Shown here piece by piece: positions 12,307 through 19,273 of a stretch of 64,000 nucleotides of DNA. This DNA comes from Hyphomicrobiales bacterium (GTDB taxonomy: Bacteria; Pseudomonadota; Alphaproteobacteria; Rhizobiales; Rhizobiaceae). The number at the start of each line of letters is the position of its first letter. Within the stretch, counting starts at the first letter, position 1. A program made the translations under genes and the position numbers. The notes under the pieces were generated by a model, which worked only from the letters and a program-made list of their open reading frames with translations, was not told the origin of the DNA and ran no database searches. The stretch covers positions 124,001 to 188,000 of the forward strand of contig JAJFHV010000021.1 in the NCBI GenBank assembly GCA_021775415.1. Direction: 5' to 3'.

Positions 12307-14250
12307 TTACTGAACGATACGCATGTCAGCAATCTGGTTGGCAATATTTTCCATTGCCTGCTCCAGCTCACCGCCGTCCACATCGTAGTAAAAGGTGCCG
12401 CCGGCAATGATTTCACTGCCGTTCTTGATGCCTGAGCCGGAACACTCATTCAACAAGTACTTGACTGACGAACCATCCGAAACATCAAACGCAATCGTGA
12501 AGATGGAAATTCCATCATTCTTCACGTTGTTGCACGACTGGTTAGTGTGAGCGTTCATGATCAGTTCGAAATCACTTGAACTTTCAGGCGTCAAGTCGAA
12601 CGACGTTCCCGAGTAGATCGTGTCCGTCAGATCAGATGGATCCAGACCATCAATCCAGCGGTTTTGAGCAACCTGCAATCCTTGTTCTTCGAAGAGCGGA
12701 TTGTACGGTTCCCCGGTGCGGGCATAACCCCAGGCACCGTATGATGTCTGGTTTGGTGTGCTGTCACCATCGGTGCTGTAGTAGTTGTTACCATCGGTCA
12801 ACAGGACGATATATTTTATGTTCTGATTATCATCATCCTCACGACCGGTAGTGAACGGTTCATTATCGCTCAATGTACGCCAACCCCAGGTCAGACCCTG
12901 TTGAATGTTGGTGATGCCGTTGGAATCCATGGCGTTGATCGCATCATCGATGTCATTCTGGACTGTAGTAAGCTCAGTGATCGGATCAATGGTACAACCA
13001 TAGTTTGGTCCTTCCCATTCATCCATGTCACTCACATCGATCTCACCACTTTGATATTTAAACATCCAGTTGGTGCGGTTGATCTGGTCGTCCCAGTCCT
13101 TCTGGTCGTAGGGATCTACCGGTTCAGGAGCGTATTCATGAACATTTGCCCAAATCCTGCTACCATCCGCGATCTTCCAATCGTAGATGTAGTCATTTCT
13201 GTAGCTATCGTCATCGGTATAATGGTACGTGGAACTACCACTCTTCCATGCGTATCTGCGATCTGGTTCGTCAGGCGCGAAGTAGTGAACAAAGAGGCCA
13301 TCGGCGCCATCATTGATTCCGTCTCCGTCCGCATCTGCAGAGGCCATAACATTGGCAAAACTCTGGTTGGCAAACACAACTTCATCTGTCGTGTTGTATG
13401 GCCATGGCCGCATTTCTACGCAGCCACCCCATTCAACACCCATCATGTCAAACACGTCAACGCGTGTTAGCCAGTCCCAACTGCCGCTGATTTTTTCCTG
13501 AAACCCATCGTGCTTGAAGCGTGTTTCATTGCTGGTTTCATATGTATTCCAGTCAAAATTTTCATGGGCAATGGAAGACCAGCCTTTGCGATCCATGTAT
13601 TTTCTGTTCCAGTTACTCGTACCGATATTGACAGTACCTGCAAACGGAACGACAGAGAACTTAACCGGATCTGGCAGGTCGGTCAGGGTGGACGCATTAA
13701 AGATTGTCTCTACCAATGCCAACGTTTCCGTCTTCATGGTTTGAAGACGGTTGTTGGAGCCCATTGAGCCGGAATTATCCATTACCAGGGCAATTTCCAC
13801 AGTTCGGTTTCCGAGGGCAATTTGAGACGTTACTTCGTTGACAAATTCGTCTTCTCCCAAGATCATTCCACCGCCAAACAAGGTATCATAAGTCAGAGTG
13901 GCATCGAGCGTGATGCTCGTTGGAATTGCAGGTTCAACACTTGAGTCCCCCTGCTCCAACGCGAAATCAAACGTGATGTCTTCGTCTTTGATACCATCGT
14001 CAAGATTTGCCTTGAAGAATGCTTCCGCATAAACTTCGAGTTCTGATTCAGATGCGCCAGTGTTCATGTGCCGCCCGGCTGCAAGGCCGGCAGCATCCAG
14101 TGCTTGTTGCACTGAATTTTTCTGATCCACATAAATTGTATAGTCCACAGCCGCGCCAAGTGATGCCATGACTGGAACTACTAATATGGCACCTGTTACC
14201 GCGAAATTACCGCTAGAACTCTCAAAAAAATTCCTAAGCTTCTTCAACAT
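12307..14250 (-). CDS. tadG: TadG-like pilus-assembly protein with von Willebrand A domain
   Basis: About 647 residues. The N-terminus has the TadE/TadG form: a short cytoplasmic stretch, GNFAVTGAILVVPVMASLGAAVDYT (one membrane helix, residues about 14-38), then VDQKNSVQQALDAAGLAAG. A vWA domain follows with a MIDAS motif DNSGS at residues 158-162, and there is a long insertion rich in W, D and Y. The C-terminal part has IVLLTDGNN. The protein should be anchored in the inner membrane and face the periplasm. Start ATG 14250 has AGGG upstream; ATG 14283 is an alternative. It is separated from the main tad operon by about 4.5 kb. Confidence 0.85.
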   Translation of the reverse strand: MLKKLRNFFESSSGNFAVTGAILVVPVMASLGAAVDYTIYVDQKNSVQQALDAAGLAAGRHMNTGASESELEVYAEAFFKANLDDGIKDEDITFDFALEQGDSSVEPAIPTSITLDATLTYDTLFGGGMILGEDEFVNEVTSQIALGNRTVEIALVMDNSGSMGSNNRLQTMKTETLALVETIFNASTLTDLPDPVKFSVVPFAGTVNIGTSNWNRKYMDRKGWSSIAHENFDWNTYETSNETRFKHDGFQEKISGSWDWLTRVDVFDMMGVEWGGCVEMRPWPYNTTDEVVFANQSFANVMASADADGDGINDGADGLFVHYFAPDEPDRRYAWKSGSSTYHYTDDDSYRNDYIYDWKIADGSRIWANVHEYAPEPVDPYDQKDWDDQINRTNWMFKYQSGEIDVSDMDEWEGPNYGCTIDPITELTTVQNDIDDAINAMDSNGITNIQQGLTWGWRTLSDNEPFTTGREDDDNQNIKYIVLLTDGNNYYSTDGDSTPNQTSYGAWGYARTGEPYNPLFEEQGLQVAQNRWIDGLDPSDLTDTIYSGTSFDLTPESSSDFELIMNAHTNQSCNNVKNDGISIFTIAFDVSDGSSVKYLLNECSGSGIKNGSEIIAGGTFYYDVDGGELEQAMENIANQIADMRIVQ

Positions 14251-14551: not shown

Positions 14552-15352
14552 ATGTTTCAGAAAAACACTGCGCTACTGGCGTGTTTTCTTGCATTGGCAG
14601 CTTGTCAAAGCAGTAGTGTAAAACTTGCTGACAAGAATGGCGGACAACGCTCCGGAATGGAAGCAGGGCAGGCCGATCCGTTTACCAGCGAAATTGCTAA
14701 TGCAGCAGCTCAAGATCAACTGGATAGCGCCGGTGTGGACAACACCGTTGTGGGGTCAATAACAAAGAATACCGGTGGCGGAAAAATTGTTATCAGCAAG
14801 TACCGCCCACCAAAGGTTGGCACGACTTTTTATTGGAAAAACAACTGGAATTCCTTGCCGCCACGGCTGGTGCACAAGGTGACATCCCATAGCGCAATAT
14901 TTGAAGGCAAGACAGCCATTCAGATGGACGCGATTGATGACACGGGTAACGGCACCAAAACCTTTTATGACGTGACAAGTTCAAATCTTCTGGGTCACCA
15001 GGACAAGAACGGGAACCCGGTTGTGGTGTTTCCTCAAGTTGAAGAACGCCTACGTTTTCCGATGAGGCCGGGTGACCAGTGGATGACCACGTGGAAGTCG
15101 GTCGATCGCAGCACGCAGAAAACCACAAAAGGTGGTGGCGTGGTAAAGGTTATTGGCGCGGAGAAATTGGTCGTTGCCAACAAACATCTCAAAACGATGA
15201 AAATTCGATTGCCATTACCCGCAAAACTGGGTCGTGGAATGAAGCACTTTATCTGGTATTCACCTAAGCTGGGTGTGGTCGTGCGTGAGCAGATATCAAA
15301 CGGCACATTTGTTTGGGTGAAGGAACTCGAGAAAATTAAGCTTCCAAGCTGA
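14552..15352 (+). CDS. putative lipoprotein of unknown function
   Basis: 266 residues. The N-terminus TALLACFLALAACQSSS is a clear lipoprotein signal, with Cys18 expected to be lipidated. The mature part has a low-complexity stretch to about residue 75 and then a compact domain with YRPPKVGTTFYWKNNW, LRFPMRPGDQWMTTWKS and IWYSPKLGVVVREQ, which looks like a beta-rich sheet. The family is not recognised. It is the only plus-strand gene in the 12.3-17.9 kb stretch, enclosed by tadG and the pilin-like operon, so a role in surface-fibre assembly is possible but is inference. Confidence 0.7.
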   Translation: MFQKNTALLACFLALAACQSSSVKLADKNGGQRSGMEAGQADPFTSEIANAAAQDQLDSAGVDNTVVGSITKNTGGGKIVISKYRPPKVGTTFYWKNNWNSLPPRLVHKVTSHSAIFEGKTAIQMDAIDDTGNGTKTFYDVTSSNLLGHQDKNGNPVVVFPQVEERLRFPMRPGDQWMTTWKSVDRSTQKTTKGGGVVKVIGAEKLVVANKHLKTMKIRLPLPAKLGRGMKHFIWYSPKLGVVVREQISNGTFVWVKELEKIKLPS

Positions 15353-15369
15353 ACGTGTGGCTAACTCAA

Positions 15370-15936
15370 TTACTCACAACGCAATGTTGCGTAGGAAGTG
15401 TAGTTGCCTGTCGAATATGGACCTGTATTGTCTGCGATCAGGTCGGCCGTAATTTCTGTGATGCTGAAACCGCGCCTTAACCGCCGGGGATTGGTTCCTG
15501 GCCGGTCGGTGAAATTTCGACCGCGAAAGATACTTGTTCCAGAAAAGAGTGTTGAGAATGCCACCCCACTGCCGTCAAAACCCGGTGGTGAGGAAAGAAA
15601 AAACGCCGGTGCATCCAACCAAATCCTATAGTTGGTAAACGAGATTACCCGAGCAATACCACCCACACCGCCTGGGTTCTTGGAACTCAACTGGGTTCCT
15701 GTTGGATTCGGTGCCAGTGTACCATCACTCAGGACGATAATGATGCATGCATTGGGTGCCGGGATGTTGCCGTTAAAATTAACTGTCTGGGCGGAAGCCC
15801 CTGGTGAGAAGGGGATGGCCGCAAAGACGCAGGCAGCGGTGATCCGCGCCAGAAGACCTGTGATTGATTTGCGGATTTTGTCCGGACTGCCGCCTTGGAC
15901 AGTTTTCAAACCGGATGATTTATAAGAATTTTTCAT
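15370..15936 (-). CDS. secreted pilin-like subunit, paralogue 3
   Basis: About 188 residues, with a signal peptide ending GASAQ and then a mature domain starting VNFNGNIPAPNAC and ending YTSYATLRCE. Aligned by eye with the products at 15959 and 17411 it shares an early Cys (CIIIV), GTLA, a GGVGGIARV segment, LDAP, VAFSTLFSGT, PGTNP and the C-terminal LRCE. The paired terminal cysteines recall spore-coat-U or fimbrial-subunit domains. Start ATG 15936 is chosen; GTG 15966 overlaps the previous gene. Last gene of the five-gene operon. Confidence 0.7.
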   Translation of the reverse strand: MKNSYKSSGLKTVQGGSPDKIRKSITGLLARITAACVFAAIPFSPGASAQTVNFNGNIPAPNACIIIVLSDGTLAPNPTGTQLSSKNPGGVGGIARVISFTNYRIWLDAPAFFLSSPPGFDGSGVAFSTLFSGTSIFRGRNFTDRPGTNPRRLRRGFSITEITADLIADNTGPYSTGNYTSYATLRCE

Positions 15937-15958
15937 TATCGCCCACACAACAATTTTC

Positions 15959-16486
15959 CTATTCACATCGCAGCGTAACTTGAGCGCTGTAAAAGCCGGC
16001 AGGAAACGCGTTGGAGTTTTTCTTCGCCGACATGTTTACTGCAATTCTGGAATCACCCTTTTTCAGTTTTACCGGAATGGTGCCCGGGGTCTCAGAAAAA
16101 TTTGTGGCTCCGGTTCCGGAATAACCCGTCGAAAACGTCACACCGGTATCGCCGTTCGGGGGCATTTGGATAAATCCATATGGTCCATCCAGTGCAATTC
16201 TGAATGAACTGTTGCTTACCGATACATTGGCATAGGCTGGTTGTCCGCCTGCCTCTGTTGATCCCATAGCGCTGCTATCATAGCGGACACCTATCATGCC
16301 CGGTTGTGTCACCAGGATCTGGCAGAAGTGCTTGTTCATTGCATTAGCTGTTGCAGTGATTCCAATCGACAATAGAACGCCCAAAAGGCCGCACACACTT
16401 GTGTATGCAACCCTTTGTGAAACTCTGTTGATTGGGCCCCTGTACAATTTACTGTTGCTTTCCTTCTGTGGTCCAGCCTTCATCAT
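15959..16486 (-). CDS. secreted pilin-like subunit, paralogue 2
   Basis: About 175 residues, with a long N-terminus carrying a hydrophobic segment (VCGLLGVLLSIGITATANA) that fits a signal peptide. The mature part begins MNKHFCQILV and ends YSAQVTLRCE. It shares with paralogue 3 the sequence order Cys-I-V, GG-x-A-V, FRIALDGP, VTFSTGYSGT, PGT-x-PVKLKKG and LRCE, so the two are homologous although diverged. The start is uncertain: ATG 16486, ATG 16483 or GTG 16495. Both ends overlap neighbouring genes, so it is translated from a compact operon. Confidence 0.7.
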   Translation of the reverse strand: MMKAGPQKESNSKLYRGPINRVSQRVAYTSVCGLLGVLLSIGITATANAMNKHFCQILVTQPGMIGVRYDSSAMGSTEAGGQPAYANVSVSNSSFRIALDGPYGFIQMPPNGDTGVTFSTGYSGTGATNFSETPGTIPVKLKKGDSRIAVNMSAKKNSNAFPAGFYSAQVTLRCE

Positions 16487-17009
16487 CCCAGTCACCGCTG
16501 GTAGCTGACGCTGTTTTTATTAGATCCTGTGGATCTCCATCCTGTCCGTTTTCACTCACCGCTTCGACATCGGCTTCAAGTTCGCCGGCAACTGCGGTGC
16601 CGCTAGGCGGTGTAACACCTCTACCCAGTCCCATTTGCATGAGACGAAGTTCCATCTGAAGTCTTTGAACTTCAAGGTCGTAAAGCCGCGAACAATCGAG
16701 CCTTTTGGACTGTCGTCCAAGTGGAATGACAATTCTCCCGTAATGAGAAATGTCAGAGGCCGTCGACTGATCCGGATTGCCGATGATACCGACATCAAGA
16801 TATGCGCCACTGCCGGAGACGGCAGATCTGCAAGTTGTTCCATCAGCGGCACGCACTTCGTCGTGTCCGGTTGGCAGTTGAACGCCAGGCAGATTAAACC
16901 CTGACAAATTCTGGGTGATGGTCTGTGCACTTGCAGTGCCTGTAGCCAGTGCAAGCATAATTCCAGCCAACCCTATTGCTGCAACCTCGTTCCTAAATAT
17001 TTTCCACAT
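16449..17009 (-). CDS. secreted protein of unknown family, fourth in pilin-like operon order
   Basis: 186 residues with a signal peptide (AAIGLAGIMLALATGTASAQ). The mature core holds GFNLPGVQLPTG, EVRAADGTTCRS, GSGAYLDVGIIG, YGRIVIPLG and RLDCSRLYDLEVQRLQMELRLM, the last forming a predicted amphipathic helix. Two cysteines could pair. The tail (residues 140-186) is acidic and low in complexity. The ATG has AAGG seven bases upstream and lies inside the end of the previous gene. I do not recognise the family. Conservation of its position between chaperone-like and subunit genes would be the test of a shared role. Confidence 0.65.
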   Translation of the reverse strand: MWKIFRNEVAAIGLAGIMLALATGTASAQTITQNLSGFNLPGVQLPTGHDEVRAADGTTCRSAVSGSGAYLDVGIIGNPDQSTASDISHYGRIVIPLGRQSKRLDCSRLYDLEVQRLQMELRLMQMGLGRGVTPPSGTAVAGELEADVEAVSENGQDGDPQDLIKTASATSGDWDDEGWTTEGKQQ

Positions 17010-17383
17010 ATCTGAGCCTTTATTGTTGATTTTTGTCCCGGAAACGGGATGGCTTCAGTGCATATGCGCACCTTCCTGTTTTCCCCCCCCGCGAATGGCA
17101 CCACTACGGTGACGGGCCGCGAGAAGCTTGCGCCGAGCGTAAACTCGGCAGGTGACACCACGGCCGATATCGGCCTGAAGTCCTTGTCGTATACTTTTAC
17201 CTCAACACGAATTCTGTGCTGGTAAGGATTTGCCGGGAATACGCGCACGGCAAATGAATCTGTAAAACTGTCAATCTTTGCCTTCATTGGAGACATCGAT
17301 TGAGCTGCTGCCACGGATGGCAGCAGCGTGAGTGAAAGCGAGCCGGCAATAGCTGCGAATATAATTTTATTATTTAGTTTCAT
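16973..17383 (-). CDS. secreted single-domain protein resembling a pilus-chaperone N-terminal domain
   Basis: 136 residues, signal peptide ending VAAAQ. The mature part has the strand pattern of the first Ig-like domain of PapD-type chaperones: FAVRVFPANPYQHRIRVEVKVYD, then VVSPAEFTLGASFSRPVTVVVPF and RKVRICTEAIP. A second chaperone domain is absent. This similarity is judged by eye and is only suggestive. It follows the first subunit gene by 27 bases and overlaps the next gene by 37. A chaperone or structural role in the same fibre is the simplest reading. Confidence 0.6.
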   Translation of the reverse strand: MKLNNKIIFAAIAGSLSLTLLPSVAAAQSMSPMKAKIDSFTDSFAVRVFPANPYQHRIRVEVKVYDKDFRPISAVVSPAEFTLGASFSRPVTVVVPFAGGENRKVRICTEAIPFPGQKSTIKAQICGKYLGTRLQQ

Positions 17384-17410
17384 AGTTTTACCGACTCCTT
17401 GATTGCGGTG

Positions 17411-17857
17411 TTACTCAGAACAGGTCAGCGTGGCCTGCGAAGTGTATGCGCCGGTTGTAAAACCAGCAGCTGAAGTAGCGAAGTAATCAACATCGACGTC
17501 GTTTGAACCAGCATTGGTCAGTGCAAGCGTGGTTACGCCTGTGCCGCTGTTTGGTCCTGCGGTTACATCAAATGTGGCTGATGTAGCGTCTGCAGCTGAT
17601 GGTCCAGCCCAAGCAGTTGCAGCAACGCTCAGATCGAAATCTGGACCAGTGCTTACAACAGTAGCTGTACCGGCAGAACCGCCGCCTTGAGTTGAATCGA
17701 GATTGTTGTTGCCTGCATCAGATGCAAGCGTACCACCGGTGTTTACAGTGATAGTGCAAGTGTTTGCGACAGCGCCGCCAAAGTTAACGACCTGTGCTTG
17801 TGCAGCCAATGGTGCCATTGCCAAAGCAACAACAGCCAATTTTATGAGATTCCTCAT
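17411..17857 (-). CDS. secreted pilin-like subunit, paralogue 1 (first gene of operon)
   Basis: 148 residues with signal peptide LAVVALAMAPLAAQAQ. The mature domain begins VVNFGGAVANTCTITV and ends YTSQATLTCSE. It is very rich in Ala, Gly, Ser, Thr and Asp with few charged side chains, as in exported fibre subunits. It is shorter than the two paralogues but shares their N- and C-terminal cysteine blocks, GTLAS, GGSAGTA and the late G-x-Y-T-S. AGGAG lies eight bases before the ATG. As the first gene it is likely the most expressed and so the candidate major subunit (inference). Confidence 0.72.
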   Translation of the reverse strand: MRNLIKLAVVALAMAPLAAQAQVVNFGGAVANTCTITVNTGGTLASDAGNNNLDSTQGGGSAGTATVVSTGPDFDLSVAATAWAGPSAADATSATFDVTAGPNSGTGVTTLALTNAGSNDVDVDYFATSAAGFTTGAYTSQATLTCSE

Positions 17858-18217
17858 GCCCTATACTCCTAGTGTTTGAGCCTTTTTTCCTGTCAGACTA
17901 TTAGGAGCTATTTTTTGTCGGCGATTGATTAGATCGCCATGCCCCCTACTAAGTCTGCCGCAAGTTATACGGATCAAGTTTTAGAATTTCGTTTATTTGC
18001 CTGGTAAACGGGGAGTAAAGAAATAGATCCACCACAGTGGCGATATCAGTCCAAAAACAACGCTGGAATGGCTGTATTCTGCGCTTATTCCGTTACGTTA
18101 CCGTGGAGCAGAATAGCGAATAATTTCTGAATCATGTCTCAGACTGATGCAAAAAAGGTGGCACGGAAGTTGCTTTGTCTTGTTCACAAGCCATGAAAAC
18201 AGAACAGGCAAGACAGT
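17858..18217. promoter_or_regulatory. 360-base divergent control region of the pilin-like genes
   Basis: No gene is seen here. It must contain the promoter of the minus-strand subunit operon and of the plus-strand 137-residue gene. Two inverted repeats stand out: GGCGAT (17920-17925) with ATCGCC (17933-17938), and TATTCTGC (18075-18082) with GCAGAATA (18108-18115). Either could be a regulator site; neither is assigned. Confidence 0.4.
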
Positions 18218-18631
18218 ATGCAATGTGTTTTAAAAATCTACATTCTTATGGTGACGTTTATATTCGGGTTGCTTGGCAGTTTAAACAATGTCTACGCCGG
18301 TCAGGTTGTTTTTAGTGGGCAAGTTTTAGCGAAGCAGGGCTCGTCAGTGCCGATGATGGGCACTGTCACTAGTTTCGGTGATGTGGCCGCAATCCAGTTG
18401 AATGTATTGTCTGAAGAGTTGCGGGAAGGTTTAGCGGTCGTACGTGTGAATGATGCGCGAGGACATCTGGTTTCGAGTAAAGTCATCATGGGGCAGGGCA
18501 CGGCTTCCCAGTCGTTTATCATGTTCAAGCTCAACGAAATGAAACAACAGGATGTGACCCTGTGCGTTGAGCGAAATGCGGTTGGAAAATCTGATGTTTG
18601 TGTTCGCTACCGGGTGCAGCGCGCTGGCTAA
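18218..18631 (+). CDS. small secreted protein, possible partner of the pilin-like operon
   Basis: 137 residues with a hydrophobic N-terminus (IYILMVTFIFGLLGSLNNVYAG) typical of a signal peptide. The mature part has GQVVFSGQVLAKQG, an Ig-like strand pattern and VTLCVERNAVGKSDVCVRY near the end, so two cysteines close to the C-terminus. This end weakly resembles that of the chaperone-like product at 16973 (VRICTE, then QICGKY). It is divergent from the subunit operon across a 360-base control region and convergent with tadD. Family not recognised. Confidence 0.6.
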   Translation: MQCVLKIYILMVTFIFGLLGSLNNVYAGQVVFSGQVLAKQGSSVPMMGTVTSFGDVAAIQLNVLSEELREGLAVVRVNDARGHLVSSKVIMGQGTASQSFIMFKLNEMKQQDVTLCVERNAVGKSDVCVRYRVQRAG

Positions 18632-18724: not shown

Positions 18725-19273
18725 TTAGCTACCCATCACCTTTTCGAGAAGATGGATATTTCCTTCAATTTCTTCCAGTGAAGGATCAATCACCTGGGCG
18801 CGGTTCAGGTAGTTGCGGGATTTTTGGTAGTTGCCTCGCAGCAGATGTGAATAACCGATATTGTTCAATACCCGTGCATTACCCTGTTTAAGTTCGGCCA
18901 GTTGCTTGTAGGCGCGATCAGAAAATTCAAAGCGGCCGAGTTGATCAAGTGATGCAGCCAATCCAAGCCAGGCTGTTGCATTGTCAGACTGGGCTTCAAC
19001 CGCTTTGCGGAATTGTTTTTCCGCCAGACCGAAGTTCTGGTCACGGAAATGATCTTGTCCTGCAACAACAAATTTTTCCGCCTGGCCACTTTTGCGGCTC
19101 ACGTGATCTGAGCGTGGAACGCGTCTGTAGCCTCGTTCCGTCTCATAGTGTGCCGTCAGGGCCCCACCATGATCAATTGTGTTGTTGTGGGTAGATGTCG
19201 CGCTGGTGCTGCATCCTGCAATTGGCGAGGCAGCCATCAAAACAAGCGCGATGATTTTCAATCCGGATTTCAT
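18725..19273 (-). CDS. tadD: TadD-like TPR lipoprotein
   Basis: 182 residues. The lipoprotein signal ends SPIAGCSTS. Then come TPR repeats: DHFRDQNFGLAEKQFRKAVEAQ, ATAWLGLAASLDQLGRFEFSDRAYKQ and ARVLNNIGYSHLLRGNYQKSRNYLNRAQ. TadD is thought to help place the secretin or assemble the Tad apparatus in the periplasm. It follows tadC by 145 bases on the same strand and ends at a bidirectional terminator, so it closes the main tad transcription unit, perhaps with its own promoter. Confidence 0.88.
   Translation of the reverse strand: MKSGLKIIALVLMAASPIAGCSTSATSTHNNTIDHGGALTAHYETERGYRRVPRSDHVSRKSGQAEKFVVAGQDHFRDQNFGLAEKQFRKAVEAQSDNATAWLGLAASLDQLGRFEFSDRAYKQLAELKQGNARVLNNIGYSHLLRGNYQKSRNYLNRAQVIDPSLEEIEGNIHLLEKVMGS

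Follow-up and report, generated by a model that had tools for sequence, protein, structure and literature searches.

The stretch of Hyphomicrobiales bacterium DNA analyzed here (64,000 nucleotides of contig JAJFHV010000021.1, assembly GCA_021775415.1; referred to as the window) carries a compact gene module built around three genes that we designated SUB, for a pilin-like subunit, CH, for a one-domain chaperone, and X, for the third protein. SUB-CH-X is a widely conserved three-gene unit that recurs in soil and marine bacteria and in many Vibrio phages, mostly found without an accompanying usher in the carriers tested. A sequence-only reading of the window had described five minus-strand genes for exported proteins and a divergent sixth. 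All six open reading frames (ORFs) were checked and lie at the coordinates given in Table 1, and all six products open, by inspection, with a signal-peptide-like stretch.

Table 1. Genes of the module, with positions counted from the first letter of the window
Gene	Position	Strand	Description
SUB-A	17411..17857	-	First gene of the module; putative pilin-like exported subunit; orthologs are also first in their modules
CH	16973..17383	-	Single-domain putative periplasmic chaperone, predicted to correspond to domain 1 of PapD/Caf1M only
X	16449..17009	-	Small exported protein without a recognized fold; related to phrog_37374
SUB-B	15959..16495	-	Second putative pilin-like subunit; listed GTG start perhaps too far upstream
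SUB-C	15370..15966	-	Third putative pilin-like subunit; internal ATG start possible
D6	18218..18631	+	Divergent gene; diverged CH paralog; also adjoins the module in the nearest relative

The minus-strand genes are ordered SUB-A, CH, X, SUB-B, SUB-C, with overlaps of 37 base pairs between CH and X, 47 between X and SUB-B, and 8 between SUB-B and SUB-C. Neither Pfam nor NCBIfam assigned a named family to any of the six products, and PADLOC models of known antiphage defense proteins recognized no family among eight proteins, namely the five of the window other than D6 and three of a phage contig.

Proteins of the module

The structure predicted for CH, a protein of 136 amino acids, has the fold of domain 1 of PapD/Caf1M chaperones (predicted local distance difference test, or pLDDT, 89.7), and all 50 Protein Data Bank (PDB) matches listed for the model by Foldseek agree with a domain 1 of this type. 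Residues 33 to 136 of the model cover PapD residues 7 to 120 only, and domain 2 is missing. The predicted structure thus bears out the earlier suggestion that this gene encodes the first immunoglobulin (Ig) domain of a PapD-type chaperone without the second.

Residues that a PapD-type chaperone uses to hold its subunit also appear to be present. Position 34 of CH is Arg or Lys in 40 of 41 sequences and position 128 is Lys or Arg in all 41; with phage members added, they are basic in 41 and 43 of 46, respectively. When CH is aligned with CupB2 by VIA, its residues 34 to 135 pair with CupB2 residues 36 to 148. Because of these ranges, position 34 would correspond to Arg36 of CupB2 and, if the last stretch is gapless, position 128 to Lys141, a placement made by alignment ranges and not by residue-level superposition. 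Arg36 and Lys141 are described, in an excerpt of PMC3031594, as the carboxylate-binding pair of the chaperone, for the subunit C terminus, and positions 34 and 128 of CH probably represent this invariant Arg and Lys. Cys108 and Cys126 are present in all 41 sequences and in all 46 rows that include phage members. In the model they lie on strands 102 to 112 and 124 to 133, which correspond to F1 and G1. A disulfide between these two strands is conserved in chaperones of the F1-G1-long (FGL) type, according to an excerpt of PMC3706281, and from the predicted strand positions we infer the same bond in CH.

The divergent gene D6 is, on its sequence, a diverged CH paralog, a relation absent from the sequence-only reading. 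The CH profile matched D6 in the window (E = 6.2e-6), and a two-sequence profile of D6 and its ortholog in locus L010 (34% identical) gave 95.7 to 96.7% against the CH family with hhalign and 0.2% against PapD. A lone distant relative of CH was also seen in genome G009 (L016:6360-6824), near genes for proteins of 766 and 1031 amino acids.

The SUB family profile picked exactly three ORFs of the window (E = 1.8e-32 to 2.3e-45), a result that is partly by construction because these ORFs are among the sequences that make up the profile. A single-protein search with the product of 17411 recovered that of 15370 at 35% identity (E = 3.3e-7) and did not recover 15959. The profile and the 17411-15370 match confirm that the three genes are diverged paralogs, as had been proposed. 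Cys34, Gly42, and Gly136 occur in all 81 SUBs of alignment A6, in which a GG pair, Tyr138, Cys146, and Glu147 are nearly invariant; 73 of the 81 end in Cys-Glu.

When the SUB family was aligned with 11 SCPU pilins of relatives, hhalign gave 70.2% and 82.8% over 134 to 135 columns with majority columns, and 43.3% (26 columns) and 74.8% with first-row columns; values against PapD were at most 6.8%, and cross-controls were below 20%. No Pfam pilin family, SCPU included, scored above the cutoff in the 81 SUBs. The sole PDB sequence with an E value below 0.01 for the SUB profile was 10ss, a chain of 179 amino acids that matches the start of the profile (E = 0.0058) over a stretch that includes GTITFNGKVTDKTCTI. 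This entry is recorded as ferrous iron transporter B; by eye its start resembles a fimbrial pilin, and the label may be wrong. SUB is treated as pilin-like because of the SCPU profile alignment and the 10ss start match, and the assignment, made from sequence, is of moderate strength.

As a control, the SUB, CH, and X profiles were searched at E < 0.01 against 1154 ORFs of other loci, most of which encode ordinary pili. The three profiles matched 1, 1, and 0 of these ORFs, and the lone SUB match (E = 0.0015) sits in an SCPU pilin locus. None of 1200 shuffled module proteins was matched by any of the three.

X has two conserved Cys residues and the conserved blocks DEVRAxDGTTC, YGRxVxPxG, and LDCxxLYxLExxRL. 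It had been described as a protein without a recognized fold, and AlphaFold2 likewise yielded no confident fold (pLDDT, 61.9; predicted template modeling score, 0.31), giving a low-confidence beta hairpin (residues 69 to 77 and 89 to 97) and a helix (106 to 125). Conserved residues fall at alternate positions on the two predicted strands (Y70, D72, and G74; Y90, R92, V94, and P96), a pattern in the low-confidence model that might suit a barrel-forming hairpin. The phage family phrog_37374 was matched by the X proteins of all 47 bacterial members scanned.

Distribution in bacteria and phages

CH, SUB-A, and X are held by exactly the same 7 of 61 genomes, comprising the genome under study and 60 relatives. 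The neighborhoods in these seven share one order, SUB-CH-X followed by zero, one, or two SUBs; conservation of the neighborhood, a test proposed in the sequence-only reading, was thus upheld. Within the family, 50 of 394 genomes have X, and these fall in 20 of 109 genera; samples of the class and of the phylum gave 2 of 386 and 9 of 397 genomes, respectively (the genome under study is counted in each).

A scan of named genomes yielded 110 loci, of which the best 80 were taken for counts of gene order and of tight adherence (tad) genes. These 80 are mostly from Mesorhizobium, and the others include Aminobacter, Aureimonas, Fulvimarina, and Zhengella; some repeat loci of the relatives (L067 is the L010 contig, L075 is L011, L090 is L012, L145 is L013, and L127 is L014). 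The order SUB-CH-X-SUB was found in 79 of the 80, the exception being L114, which starts inside CH at a contig end, and at least two SUBs are present in 79 of the 80. X adjoins CH, usually overlapping it, in all 80 and in most other copies seen. Two tandem SUB-CH-X units occur in G541 and three in G715, and SUB-CH-X stands by itself in a genome of the same genus (L015). Because of these tandem and lone copies, SUB-CH-X is considered the minimal unit. The three units of G715 are consecutive (L222:5010-10099).

Farther from the family, SUB-CH-X is clearly present in one genome of the same class (L217), and X lies beside CH-like and SUB-like genes, with weak scores, in three genomes of the same phylum (L218 to L220); the CH-like gene beside X in L218 was itself recovered weakly. 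A lipoprotein-like gene for 1783 amino acids adjoins the diverged module there (L218:8381-13732). On a conjugative plasmid of Vibrio nigripulchritudo the order is SUB-like gene, gene for a 262-amino-acid protein, CH, X, EAL-domain gene. The CH gene, before X, is missing from the plasmid gene table (L147:5544-7054). The EAL-domain gene (PF00563) begins before X ends, which may indicate a connection with cyclic di-GMP. On the Mesorhizobium plasmid pB2-1-8, genes for EAL, GGDEF, and PilZ domains are located roughly 1 to 7 kb away from the module (L148:3493-5919 and 14630-15838).

Unexpectedly, phages carry the unit too. A tblastn search with X found it in 181 of 50,697 phage records, all of them Vibrio phages, and the surroundings were inspected in 11. 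A large gene is followed in turn by SUB, CH, and X in ten (pVp-1, PS14A.1, K251 g3, D93, Skimmer, K249, D60, vB_VhaS-tm, pVco-14, and K437a, with PS14A.1 and K437a being near copies). The exception, VF16, has X alone, with neither SUB nor CH; as annotated, this X is fused to a different N-terminal stretch (L191:4734-5294) and is likely a remnant. The phage records are of 59 to 127 kb and, where taxonomy is given, belong to the Demerecviridae (pVp-1) or the Queuovirinae (tm and pVco-14). In pVp-1 and K251 g3 the unit has the large tail-region gene on one side and a small gene for a lipoprotein-like product on the other. Comparison of nine of the ten phages showed the large gene to be homologous in all nine and in the viral locus L196, at 23 to 81% identity excluding near copies. 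Three of its homologues had no Pfam family above the cutoff, and it matches phrog_10818, for which no function is annotated. The unit appears to be an accessory in phages because L196 carries the large gene without SUB-CH-X. L196 is also the exception among 12 IMG/VR loci examined (L192 to L202 and L204; L203 and L205 were excluded because X lies near a contig end), the other 11 of which have SUB-CH-X. Of these, L204, a phage contig, has two units, and L194 shares its length and proteins with pVp-1.

For one Vibrio phage contig, SUB, CH, and X could be assigned to PHROGs 25895, 25455, and 37374 at E values of 1e-96, 2e-88, and 1e-75. Three phage SUBs gave 98.6% with hhalign against bacterial SUBs and 19.6% against SCPU. 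The bacterial CH profile does not recover the Vibrio phage CH, which gave 6.7% against CH and 0.3% against PapD. The CH proteins of L202 and L204 bridge this gap, being found by the bacterial profile (7.9e-9 and 3.2e-14), and that of L202 also matches phrog_25455 (0.0023). With bridging rows in the CH profile, phage CH proteins that are not rows were mostly found at 1e-16 or better.

The genome under study (97.3% complete) has no match to an usher (PF00577), PapD_N, or SCPU, in agreement with the earlier claim that an usher and a full chaperone are missing. Six of seven module-bearing relatives likewise lack all three; the exception, G031, has usher, PapD, and SCPU genes together on a contig other than that of the module. 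A hand-picked set of 50 carriers was also searched, comprising 34 of the 80 loci from named genomes, 10 of the 11 inspected phages, 5 of 14 viral loci, and the Vibrio plasmid; 5 of the 34 bacterial genomes repeat the relatives (G1142, G1145, G1154, G1169, and G1174). Of the 34 bacterial genomes, 6, G031 among them, had an usher match and 28, whose completeness is not stated, had none; the 16 records of phages, viruses, and the plasmid had none either.

Relation to known systems and possible function

In chaperone-usher pili, the N-terminal extension of the next subunit replaces the chaperone strand. The module described here is not classed with those systems because two of their defining components are lacking: CH has one domain where the PapD-type chaperone has two, and an outer-membrane usher was matched in none of the searches of its own genome and in 6 of the 50 carriers. 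CH most resembles the FGL chaperones (Caf1M and DraB), which occupy the top Foldseek and VIA rows for the domain 1 fold and share the Cys pair on strands equivalent to F1 and G1 and the basic residues at the carboxylate-binding places. The module differs from FGL systems in the absence of domain 2 and of an usher, and in the multiple SUBs of nearly all bacterial loci, in contrast to the single subunit, with or without a tip subunit, of FGL systems (excerpt of PMC3706281). SUB resembles the archaic (Csu-type) chaperone-usher pili in aligning to SCPU over most of its length (70 to 83% with hhalign, majority columns) but differs in the absence of SCPU matches in Pfam, the Cys-Glu end, the half chaperone, and the lack of an usher; Csu-like loci occur separately in other relatives. 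The phage proteins belong to the three PHROGs named above, which are catalogued as separate families without an annotated function. No description of the SUB-CH-X unit was found in the open-licence literature, which is weak evidence of absence.

We consider it fairly probable that the module is a self-contained, usher-less relative of chaperone-usher systems in which CH delivers Ig-fold subunits that are shown at the cell surface through X; any single role for it is less so. The Sec machinery would export SUB, CH, and X. CH would then hold the free C terminus of SUB, usually ending in Cys-Glu, by its basic residues 34 and 128 and donate its G1 strand to a presumed incomplete Ig fold of SUB, much as a chaperone is described to bind the subunit C terminus and supply a strand (excerpt of PMC3031594). 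At the outer membrane, X would relieve CH and anchor or export SUB, and the SUBs could assemble into a short fiber or coat, possibly by donor-strand exchange via the N-terminal extension. The fiber itself is something that we infer. In bacteria the result would be a surface coat or adhesin. In phages the unit, standing after the large tail-region gene, would most likely alter the surface of the infected cell, for example by stopping further adsorption. A more specific version, which is speculative and on balance unlikely, is that X oligomers in the outer membrane are a small substitute for the usher, receiving pilin-like subunits from the half chaperone, and that bacteria and phages exchange the unit, the phages coating the cell against rivals and the bacteria keeping a domesticated shield or adhesin.

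Exported phage proteins that stop readsorption have a precedent in the T5 superinfection-exclusion lipoprotein Llp, which, according to an excerpt of PMC9586334, is encoded immediately downstream of the gene for the receptor-binding protein pb5 and blocks receptor binding at FhuA. Llp and the phage unit are alike in that exported proteins are encoded beside a tail protein gene, but Llp is a single lipoprotein without a chaperone, and the two were compared by description only. Superinfection-exclusion proteins of the Llp kind are often made early, which weakens this precedent.

The same precedent suits an explanation without any fiber, in which SUB, a protein of one domain that is secreted or stays in the periplasm, is folded by CH, retained by X, and acts alone, for example as an Llp-like block of a receptor. 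In its smallest form the unit consists of one SUB, one CH, and one X (L015 and L038), its placement beside the tail-region gene in pVp-1 and K251 g3 parallels that of Llp beside pb5 (excerpt of PMC9586334), and an usher is absent from all of the phage, virus, and plasmid records. However, the presence of two or more SUBs in all but one of the 80 bacterial loci, together with the capping-type features of the chaperone, suits polymerization better, and neither family nor function indicates receptor binding by the phage tail-region gene. A solitary SUB is a possible but doubtful explanation.

The sequence-only reading had further suggested that the operon might supply an accessory to the surrounding Tad pilus machine, employing or altering it. 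The module in the window has a tetratricopeptide repeat gene at 18725 (TadD-like) on one side and a TadG-like gene at 12307 (PF13400) on the other; the remaining tad names in the window were assigned by inspection. Elsewhere, flanks of at most about 8 to 10 kb, some shorter, were searched, and tad genes were found beside just 4 of the 80 loci (L067, which is the G009 contig, L069, L071, and L074), or 5 of 88 examined with one contig counted twice. L069 has the TadG-like gene alone, and L070, a contig of 5.7 kb, has a TadD match only. The Tad idea is unsupported because of this sparse linkage, and the same module occurs in phages; a Tad accessory is very improbable. What stands of the earlier reading is the half chaperone, the paralogous subunits, the missing usher, and the conserved neighborhood, and none of the outcomes set beforehand as refuting it (subunits from unrelated families, a neighborhood that is not conserved, a nearby usher with a full chaperone) occurred. 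A separate observation concerns a lipoprotein-like gene in the window (14552-15352), convergent with the operon, whose homologues adjoin the module in L067, L068, L069, L070, L071, L072, and L074, that is, in the tad-flanked loci and the three shorter contigs L068, L070, and L072.

An ordinary chaperone-usher operon that has degenerated, with its usher unlinked elsewhere in the genome, could account for the usher matches in G031 and the other five bacterial carriers, but it is largely refuted, and we hold it to be highly unlikely, given the nearly complete genome without usher, PapD_N, or SCPU, the 28 of 34 genomes without an usher match, and the location of the G031 usher on a different contig, in the company of PapD and SCPU genes of its own.

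The accepted view is that chaperone-usher assembly requires both an usher and a chaperone of two domains. A half-chaperone unit that is conserved and mobile and has no usher would be the smallest working form of such assembly or a new route across the outer membrane. What is new here is the recognition of PHROGs 25895, 25455, and 37374 as one chaperone and pilin-like unit common to phages and bacteria. Three orphan families of phages thereby become one testable system, and the presence of the unit in many Vibrio phages suggests that pilus-like surface structures can be phage-borne.

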